Shown in pieces: positions 13,504-15,428 of a DNA stretch of 64,000 nucleotides (positions are counted from its first letter, which is position 1; every line of letters begins with the position of its first letter). A model generated the notes under the pieces. That model saw only the letters and a program-made list of their open reading frames with translations. It had not been told where the DNA came from and ran no database searches. Made by a program: the position numbers and the translations under genes. The stretch covers positions 62,001 through 126,000 of the forward strand of contig JAGBEP010000014.1 of the NCBI GenBank assembly GCA_017936925.1, read 5' to 3'. The DNA is from Clostridia bacterium. Its GTDB lineage: Bacteria > Bacillota > Clostridia > TANB77 > CAG-508.

Positions 13504-14529
13504 TTATTTACAAAAATCTTCAATAAATTTTTTATATTGACAAGTAAGATTATATAAACTATCTGCTAAAATGTACTCATCAACTTCATGAGCAGTTACT
13601 GGACCTGCCCCTAAAATCATGCAATTACTTTTTATAAAACTAGCTTCTGTAATAAAATTACATGTTTTAGAAAAACCTTGAGTATCATTAAAAAATGATG
13701 ATATTCTATTGATCTCTTGAACAGACGCTAAATATTTGTTTTTCAAAAACTCTATTTCTTTAGCAATTCTATTTTCAACACTCTTATCAATAGTTCTAAA
13801 GTCTACCAAAAATTCACAATAGTCAGGAACTGAATTAATTGCACTTCCTCCACTTATTTTTCCTATATTCATTGTTGTATAAGGAATTTCAAAATTAGTG
13901 TTAATATTATTTCTTATTCTATTTTTATAAAACTCATTTAATTCATTTATAAAAGATACTGCTTCCATAATAGCATTTTTACCTTTATTTGGAGTACTTG
14001 AATGAGTTTTTATACCTTTAAATGAAATTTTATATTCAATTAGTCCCTTACTACCAACTATAATCTCATTATTTGTAGGTTCACCTATTATCATCGTTTT
14101 TGGAAATTTTTTTTCATAATTCACTACATCTTTAATTCCAGAAAAACCTATCTCTTCATCATATGTAAAATACAACTTTATTCCCTTACTTAATTTTGTA
14201 AAATCAACTTGTGATATAGCAGAAATCATTGCTGCAATTCCTGATTTCATATCACAAACCCCTAAACCATATATCTTATTATCAACCTTAGTTAAACCAA
14301 ATTTCTCATATTTCCATCCGTCTGTAAATTCAACTGTATCAGTATGTCCTAAAAAACCTAAAGAATTCTCCTTTTTATTCGACATAATTAAAAATTTTTC
14401 TCTTCTTTCTGTTACAAATCCCATTGCTTTTAACGTTTCTTCCAAATAATCTAATATCTTCTTATTTTCTTTATCCTTAATTGTATTACATTTAACTAAA
14501 TTTTCTAAAACCATTTCTACATCTAACAT
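13504..14529 (-). CDS. M20-family metallopeptidase/deacylase (ArgE/DapE type)
   Basis: The 341-residue protein has the metal-site motifs of M20 enzymes: LGHTDTVEF (His and the catalytic Asp), YGLGVCDMKSGIAAM (bridging Asp), FTYDEEIGFSG (general base Glu-Glu), IIGEPTNNE, and a late His in GPVTAHEVDEYI. The central dimerisation domain is present. Family members remove acyl groups from amino acids or act as dipeptidases. The substrate cannot be told. It follows the GNAT gene by 17 bases and has AGAGGAG upstream, so the two likely form an operon under the attenuator-like leader. Confidence 0.88.
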   Translation of the reverse strand: MLDVEMVLENLVKCNTIKDKENKKILDYLEETLKAMGFVTERREKFLIMSNKKENSLGFLGHTDTVEFTDGWKYEKFGLTKVDNKIYGLGVCDMKSGIAAMISAISQVDFTKLSKGIKLYFTYDEEIGFSGIKDVVNYEKKFPKTMIIGEPTNNEIIVGSKGLIEYKISFKGIKTHSSTPNKGKNAIMEAVSFINELNEFYKNRIRNNINTNFEIPYTTMNIGKISGGSAINSVPDYCEFLVDFRTIDKSVENRIAKEIEFLKNKYLASVQEINRISSFFNDTQGFSKTCNFITEASFIKSNCMILGAGPVTAHEVDEYILADSLYNLTCQYKKFIEDFCK

Positions 14530-14546: not shown

Positions 14547-15137
14547 TTACTCAATTTCTTTTTCTGAATACAAATTAACCATACTCATTTTTTTCTTCAA
14601 ACTTTCCCTATTTAAAGAATTTAAATCAATTTCTAAAAATATATTCTGCATAGTTTCTACATTTCCATTTACCCTCTCTCTCTCCACACTTTGATAAACA
14701 TCAGGAATTTGCTTAAAACCTATTTTTGAAGCAATACTATAAGACATTGAGCCCCTTTCCAAAGTTCTCATATATATCTTGTCATATCCTAAAGCCTTAG
14801 ATTGCATAACCCCATATAGCATAAGTTGATTTCCAAGTCCATTTCTTCTATAACCATCTAAAACTGCAATATCAGCCAAATACATAATATTTTCTCCATT
14901 ATAATTAACCGGATGATCTGCCTTCACACCCCTTTCTAAAGCAATTAAACCACAACACCCCTCAGTAGTAGTAGTAGTAGTATATACTCCATAAACATAA
15001 CCTTTTTCTCTATATTCCCTAAATATTTCTTCTAATTCCTCATCTGTGTACTTTTCATTATAAGGCGGTCCTGAAAACACCCTATATACTTTTTTAAAAT
15101 CTTCTACATCAACAAGTTCTTTAATTTTTCCGTCCAT
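14547..15137 (-). CDS. GNAT acetyltransferase behind a regulatory leader
   Basis: The 196-residue protein has a GNAT core with IAVLDGYRRNGLGNQLM (acetyl-CoA pyrophosphate loop) and an upstream sheet. A run of six Thr codons made of ACT repeats (around 14965-14982) lies in a loop before EGCCGL. TAGGAGG precedes the start. What sets it apart is the 5' leader of about 260 bases, with its own promoter, a leader peptide and alternative hairpins, so expression is probably inducible. GNAT enzymes behind such leaders often modify antibiotics; here this is inference. The M20 gene follows. Confidence 0.8.
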   Translation of the reverse strand: MDGKIKELVDVEDFKKVYRVFSGPPYNEKYTDEELEEIFREYREKGYVYGVYTTTTTTEGCCGLIALERGVKADHPVNYNGENIMYLADIAVLDGYRRNGLGNQLMLYGVMQSKALGYDKIYMRTLERGSMSYSIASKIGFKQIPDVYQSVERERVNGNVETMQNIFLEIDLNSLNRESLKKKMSMVNLYSEKEIE

Positions 15138-15191
15138 AATTTTCCTCCTATAATAAATTAAAAGAAAAAAGATAAAAAAATAGATATGAAA

Positions 15192-15229
15192 AAAGACTAT
15201 ATATAGAATTTTTCCTACATATAGTCTTT
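15192..15229 (-). terminator. Terminator hairpin within the GNAT leader
   Basis: An 11-bp perfect stem ending in a minus-strand run of six T residues lies about 55 bases before the GNAT start codon. Its place inside the leader suggests conditional termination. Confidence 0.7.
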
Positions 15230-15315
15230 AAAACATATCTATAAAATATTTTTAAACTATCGTAGGCACAGCAATTTTAGCCTGTACCTACGCAATTTTA
15301 TTTACAATGCAGTAG

Positions 15316-15372
15316 TTACAAGCTCCTACGATGATGATGTAATTGAACGTTTAAAAATATTATTAATTTCAA
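15316..15372 (-). CDS. Putative 18-residue leader peptide
   Basis: A TTG start at 15372 lies eight bases after AAAAGAGG (15381-15388) and directs an 18-codon ORF, MKLIIFLNVQLHHHRRSL, ended by TAA. It starts about 30 bases after the -10 box. Three consecutive His codons and two Arg codons overlap segment S1 of the downstream switch. This layout is that of ribosome-mediated attenuation. Whether it senses histidine, an antibiotic or another stress cannot be told. It could also be a chance ORF. Confidence 0.5.
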   Translation of the reverse strand: MKLIIFLNVQLHHHRRSL

Positions 15373-15399
15373 TTTTTTTACCTCTTTTCTTTAAGCAAT

Positions 15400-15428
15400 A
15401 TATTAACAAAATAATTTAAATCCGTCAA
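15400..15428 (-). promoter_or_regulatory. SigA-type promoter of the GNAT leader
   Basis: TTGACG (15423-15428) and TAATAT (15400-15405) are separated by exactly 17 bases, with an extended -10 TG. It drives transcription into the leader peptide and GNAT gene. Confidence 0.75.

Follow-up and report, generated by a model that had tools for sequence, protein, structure and literature searches.

How is a small operon, consisting of a GNAT acetyltransferase gene and an M20 metallo-hydrolase gene, switched on in a bacterium of the class Clostridia? The genes lie in the 64,000-nucleotide stretch of DNA analysed here (the window), behind a leader that an original prediction, made from this one sequence, took for a drug- or amino-acid-responsive attenuator built as a three-segment RNA switch. 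The answer that we favour, with a probability of about 0.93, is a transcription attenuator in which a translating ribosome senses histidyl-tRNA and so controls the GNAT-M20 operon. Comparison of homologous leaders reveals its parts and their conservation, the pairings and the His run, and shows that the genes behind sister copies are histidine genes. How the fold depends on the position of the ribosome is computed, while stalling and antitermination in the cell, and a service of the GNAT-M20 operon to histidine supply, are what we infer from these data.

Architecture of the leader

Every part described, from the promoter to the M20 gene, lies on the minus strand:

15400-15428, minus strand: promoter of the leader RNA, TTGACG-17-TAATAT, with TG ahead of the -10
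15380-15386, minus strand: Shine-Dalgarno site AAGAGGT of the leader ORF, conserved in homologues
15316-15372, minus strand: leader ORF, 18 codons with a TTG start, ending LHHHRRSL-stop; predicted histidine sensor
15349-15364, minus strand: segment 1a, pairing with segment 3b (15245-15257) in untranslated RNA
15331-15339, minus strand: tandem His codons CAT CAT CAT, predicted stall site
15325-15332, minus strand: segment 1b (ATCGTAGG), encoding Arg-Arg; pairs with segment 3 if free of the ribosome
15308-15324, minus strand: segment 1c with post-stop bases; pairs with segment 2 (97.9% paired over 64 copies)
15279-15295, minus strand: segment 2 (CGTAGGTACAG), partner of either 1c or 3
15256-15271, minus strand: segment 3 (CTGTGCCTACGATAGT), partner of 1b, 2 or 4
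15245-15257, minus strand: segment 3b, pairing with 1a
15214-15225, minus strand: segment 4 (ACTATATGTAGG), forming the 5' arm of the terminator or, in the antiterminator, pairing with segment 3
15182-15240, minus strand: intrinsic terminator stem-loop, segments 4:5 plus an outer stem
15171-15181, minus strand: T run of the terminator
14547-15137, minus strand: GNAT acetyltransferase, PF00583 over cut-off; first gene predicted to be regulated
13504-14529, minus strand: M20 metallo-hydrolase, ArgE/DapE-like; second gene predicted to be regulated

The near-consensus promoter, the ribosome site, the 18-codon HHHRR ORF and the terminator before the GNAT start had all been proposed, and each is found as listed. 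Of 66 homologous leaders, 60 have a promoter with at least 10 of 12 matches at the corresponding place, compared with 6% of shuffled controls. After its start codon, which is TTG here whereas nearly all homologues use ATG, the leader peptide reads KLIIFLNVQLHHHRRSL. The terminator is strong, stands 45 bases upstream of the GNAT start and is the sole terminator-like site detected in this region, against an expectation of 0.1; the GNAT ATG itself is at 15137, with its Shine-Dalgarno site at 15149-15142. As a whole, the leader is a long nested inverted repeat with low-complexity ends, and it folds with a z of -9.0 relative to shuffled sequences, none of the 200 shuffles doing as well. A further complementarity joins 15160-15182 to 15371-15393 (minus strand), that is, the bases just past the terminator to the ribosome site of the leader, and it recurs in two homologues (L007 and L008); such a pairing might mask the ribosome site in the full-length RNA.

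Pairings and their conservation

The two mutually exclusive pairings proposed for segment 3, namely 15259-15266 with 15325-15332 and 15261-15271 with 15282-15292, proved exact. A switch of three segments is however incomplete, as five are needed to couple the position of the ribosome to the terminator, and two pairings had been missed: 15324-15308 with segment 2, and 15266-15256 with 15225-15214, the 3:4 helix. Segments 1b (CGTAGG), 2 and 4 each carry GTAGG, so that three copies of one short motif compete for a single partner, the CCTAC of segment 3. Most of the leader stop codon sits within 1c.

The 1a:3b helix is 93.2% paired, with changes on both sides at 4 of its 13 pairs, the 1b:3 helix 98.8% with one compensated pair (in L034), and the 2:3 helix 96.4% with three pairs changed on both sides; covariation exceeds that of shuffles for all three. 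For the terminator it reaches 0.229, against 0.113 when shuffled, and 10 of 21 pairs have changed on both sides. The 3:4 helix is nearly invariant (99.1% paired in 60 close copies), and the case for it rests on this invariance within the close family together with the few divergent relatives whose two strands appear to have changed jointly. These compensating changes were identified by eye from the sequences. L034 holds a compensating set, TGTAGG/CCTACA with TGTAGG in 1b. Across segments 2, 3 and 4, L142 reads GTAAG/CTTAC/GTAAG (L150 keeps CTTAC/GTAAG in 3 and 4), L151-L154 read AAGG/CCTT/AAGG, where the 3:4 change of CCTT with AAGG is named for L151, L152 and L154, and L175 reads GCAGG/CCTGC/GCAGG. 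Segment 4 retains its GG, which lies within or next to the terminator loop, in 60 of 60 copies, a constancy that the antiterminator pairing explains.

Position of the ribosome and choice of fold

How could such rivals be sorted by a translating ribosome? For 64 copies, the equilibrium fold was computed for an incomplete transcript, from the leading edge of the ribosome to the end of segment 4. When the first or second His codon occupies the A site, the 3:4 helix (ON) has a probability of 0.98 or 0.94, which falls to 0.23 at the third, to 0.15 and 0.07 at the Arg codons and to 0.04 at the stop codon. From the third His codon onward (His3, Arg, Ser, Leu or stop), 2:3 replaces 3:4. The predicted switch depends on 1c: when that region is shuffled, 3:4 at the first His codon drops from 0.98 to 0.06, and the switch is lost. 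The ON/OFF boundary shifts by one codon with the footprint assumed, the first His codon staying ON and the stop codon OFF throughout edges of 12-18 nt, and a stall at the third His codon folds OFF unless the edge is at most 13 nt. Stalls upstream of the first His codon fold ON too. The model thus predicts an element that would respond to other early blocks in the leader as well; His is the only repeated codon run kept there.

Several folds are less tidy. Untranslated RNA is mixed rather than clearly OFF (0.45 for 3:1b, 0.35 for 3:4), certain copies whose stop codon comes late lack a clear OFF state at that codon, and distant relatives at the level of the class give mixed results. In the equilibrium fold of the window's own full-length leader, the terminator is preferred even with a ribosome at the first His codon; 3:4 must therefore form before segment 5 exists, timing being decisive as in other attenuators.

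These elements suggest the following course of events. Transcription would begin a few bases beyond position 15400, with a ribosome translating the leader. When histidyl-tRNA is scarce, this ribosome would halt at the first or second His codon, covering 1b and leaving 1c free to pair with segment 2. Segment 3, kept free in this way, could pair with segment 4 once the latter has emerged, consuming the 5' arm of the terminator and letting transcription proceed into the GNAT gene. When histidine is plentiful, the ribosome would reach the stop codon in 1c, 2:3 and 4:5 would form, and transcription would end. The leader thus combines what is looked for in an attenuator: a Shine-Dalgarno site and short ORF with a His run, a terminator before the gene, and pairings that depend on ribosome position (computed for 64 copies).

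Distribution and genes behind the leader

A blastn search of the family with the leader of a relative as query gave about 60 long matches; scanning named genomes for a pattern yielded 68 stretches, nearly all from uncultured Clostridia. Leader identity is 60-99% across the 64 copies in other genomes, identity in the columns that the pattern fixes for most of them (CATCATCGTAGG.GC.TGTA) being partly due to selection. Conservation in 64 copies rules out chance. Two covariance models, R1 and the broader R2, were trained on the collected copies and did not demand the motif. In the search of other genomes that had been suggested at the outset, R1 locates the element in 68 of 390 genomes of the family (about a sixth), with one or two copies per genome and a single one in this genome. 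The element has relatives in further families of the order and, at the level of the class, in 8 genomes of one additional family; among 377 other genomes sampled from the phylum there was none. Its range takes in at least four families within a single class and consists in large part of uncultured gut Clostridia. Four pattern matches without a leader (L046, L062, L070, L073) were dropped, an R1 match that precedes the gene for translation elongation factor Ts (L155) was rejected, and short blastn matches within this genome (L002-L005, 26-48 bases) are apparently AT-rich chance. One copy of the element, L187, lacks the leader ORF.

The first recognised gene downstream of 66 leaders is a GNAT in 18 cases, a homologue of the CntK-like histidine racemase in 13, a HisRS-racemase fusion in 11, a family-3 solute-binding protein (SBP_bac_3) of an amino-acid ABC transporter in 10, a HisRS-like protein in 4, a phosphoribosyltransferase-like protein in 3, HisS in 2 and an M20 enzyme in 1; the remaining 4 show none or too little sequence. 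The GNAT-M20 order is retained behind 17 leaders, and a divergent leader with IHHW (L189) again has GNAT-M20 downstream. Few relatives carry the GNAT gene (5 of 56 genomes), and a search for related loci with the GNAT as probe found none, the leader being the better probe. Divergent leaders precede hisC, hisZ, hisG, hisE, hisS, transporter and pepD genes, among which hisC, hisG, hisE, pepD and one hisZ pass curated NCBIfam cut-offs.

In L049, L059, L072, L087, L092 and L106, the first gene after the leader encodes an unusual fusion of about 690-706 aa between a HisRS-like part and a CntK-like racemase; that of L072 scores over the TIGR00442 cut-off in its N-terminal part, its racemase domain (E 2e-24) being below cut-off. 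In L063, L086 and L100, the leader precedes a PRTase-CE-like protein and then a LOG-family-like gene, with no obvious histidine link. Two class-level leaders (L173, L177) stand before a short ORF, about 67 codons long, whose similarity to a histidyl-tRNA synthetase is confined to the C-terminal end of that enzyme.

Histidine as the conserved signal

What, then, is being sensed? Divergent leaders, found as weak R1 and R2 matches, differ at most positions yet keep the His run: HHHRRN, HHHCRS, HHHC-stop, HHHF-stop, HHH-stop, HHHR-stop, HHHRQS and HHHHH occur, and a few keep two His (YHHC, WHHRR, IHHW). Among the copies as a whole, HHHRR, HHHCR and HHHFR are also seen. L034 even uses the synonym CAC for one His codon. 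The His run is kept and the Arg codons are not; histidine, not arginine, is therefore the conserved signal, and the genes downstream of sister copies belong to the histidine pathway.

This bears directly on two other signals. An antibiotic that stalls the leader ribosome and turns on a resistance acetyltransferase was one half of the original proposal, in keeping with the drug-modifying enzymes found among GNATs and with a short leader bearing a basic HHHRR stretch; we now hold it to be very improbable, since the same leader stands before hisS, his biosynthesis, transporter and racemase genes, the GNAT matches no NCBIfam family, those for resistance included, and it is the Arg codons that vary among copies while the His codons stay constant. 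The other half, an amino acid, has held up, with histidine genes downstream elsewhere and the His codons retained. Sensing of arginine, or of histidine and arginine together, through CGT AGG is no easier to believe. Two Arg codons do follow the His run, and the M20 gene resembles that of acetylornithine deacetylase, but Cys or Phe stands in place of the first Arg (CGT to TGT or TTT) in L021, L033 and L034 as well as in most divergent copies, some peptides stop directly after HHH, Arg stalls fold to the terminator path with the low 3:4 values given above, and the sister targets are histidine genes.

Might the ORF be incidental to a ligand-binding riboswitch or a T-box-like element? The strong and conserved RNA fold would suit such an element, but ORF, Shine-Dalgarno site and His run are conserved, the pairings are arranged around ribosome positions, and neither a T-box nor any other Rfam family matches at the site, though T-boxes exist elsewhere in the genome; we give this reading very little credence. 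Least probable of all is an interspersed palindromic repeat lying here by accident. A long nested inverted repeat with low-complexity ends might suggest one, and copies of the palindrome at unrelated loci had been named as the finding that would point to it; the search found none, with a single full copy here and one or two per genome elsewhere, before a small and mostly histidine-related set of genes. The histidine-sensing attenuator also suits its host: no histidinol dehydrogenase was found in this genome, whereas 13 of 14 control genomes were positive, fitting a bacterium that needs to acquire histidine and for which control of acquisition would be sensible.

Comparison with known systems

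The impression that this is not a known leader class was borne out, as no Rfam family matches. The His_leader model (RF00514) gave no match at gathering score or at E<=10, and the T-box model (RF00230) none in the window; seven T-box matches lie elsewhere in this genome, one over cut-off, and other synthetase genes there are preceded by T-boxes. Matches to miRNA and RsaH families fell far short of their gathering scores and were set aside.

Attenuators with histidine leader peptides are familiar from Proteobacteria, and in the his leader of E. coli the pairings B:C and D:E alternate with C:D and E:F. The present element shares with the leader of E. coli and its relatives (RF00514) the tandem His codons, the logic of alternative pairing and a stop codon so positioned that a ribosome terminating there sets the following segment free. 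It differs in having three His codons instead of seven, in standing before several separate operons, among them those of transporters, of racemases and of the GNAT-M20 pair, and in a leader strand that can also pair directly with segment 3. In Firmicutes, histidine T-boxes control hisS, his genes and transporters; these sense tRNA directly without a leader ORF, whereas the element described here has one. To our knowledge, leader-peptide attenuators have long been held to be absent or rare in this phylum, with T-boxes dominating.

There are nevertheless precedents. A histidine leader peptide was proposed for Bacillus hisZ with a hisS paralogue (Naville and Gautheret, 2010; PMC2965389), likewise a His-run ORF before hisS-family genes of a Firmicute, with a predicted terminator; it belongs to Bacilli and ours to Clostridia, and the two are set apart by description (PMC2965389). 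A 2022 article (PMC9413887) presents candidate histidine attenuators in the B. cereus group, Peptostreptococcaceae/Lutispora and Erysipelotrichales. As described there, these are also Firmicute elements with three to five His codons, a terminator and an antiterminator; compared by description only, they belong to other lineages and stand mainly before his operons. No report of such an attenuator for the lineages considered here was found in the open-access literature. A new histidine leader-peptide family in these Clostridia, absent from Rfam and apparently unreported, is well supported by the comparison of sequences.

The GNAT-M20 operon and histidine supply

If the switch acts as predicted, it ties a little-studied acetyltransferase-peptidase operon to histidine supply, and it offers a regulatory handle on the GNAT-M20 pair, the HisRS-racemase fusions and the phosphoribosyltransferase-like protein, all predicted in that supply. 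ArgE/DapE-type M20 enzymes deacylate amino acids, and sister operons have a related M20 gene behind that of the racemase; the search of this genome for a racemase homologue found none. It is plausible that the operon recovers histidine from acylated or D-forms. More tentatively, and with the odds somewhat against it, the attenuator may mark an undescribed histidine-salvage regulon of gut Clostridia, in which the GNAT, a CntK-like racemase (alone or fused to HisRS) and the M20 enzyme would make L-histidine from D-histidine or N-acyl-histidine, all under the same starvation leader. The literature searched held no paper describing an acyl-amino-acid racemase pathway that corresponds to this trio of GNAT, racemase and M20 enzyme.

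Matches of the GNAT to pentatricopeptide repeats in the PDB were rejected as an artefact, no single stretch being over threshold. Inside its gene, at 14967-14985, an AGT/ACT triplet run missing from homologues encodes TTTTTT and is possibly an unstable microsatellite. In L082, L033, L066, L142 and L150, a gene for a VanX-like M15 dipeptidase adjoins the racemase in the leader-controlled operons.
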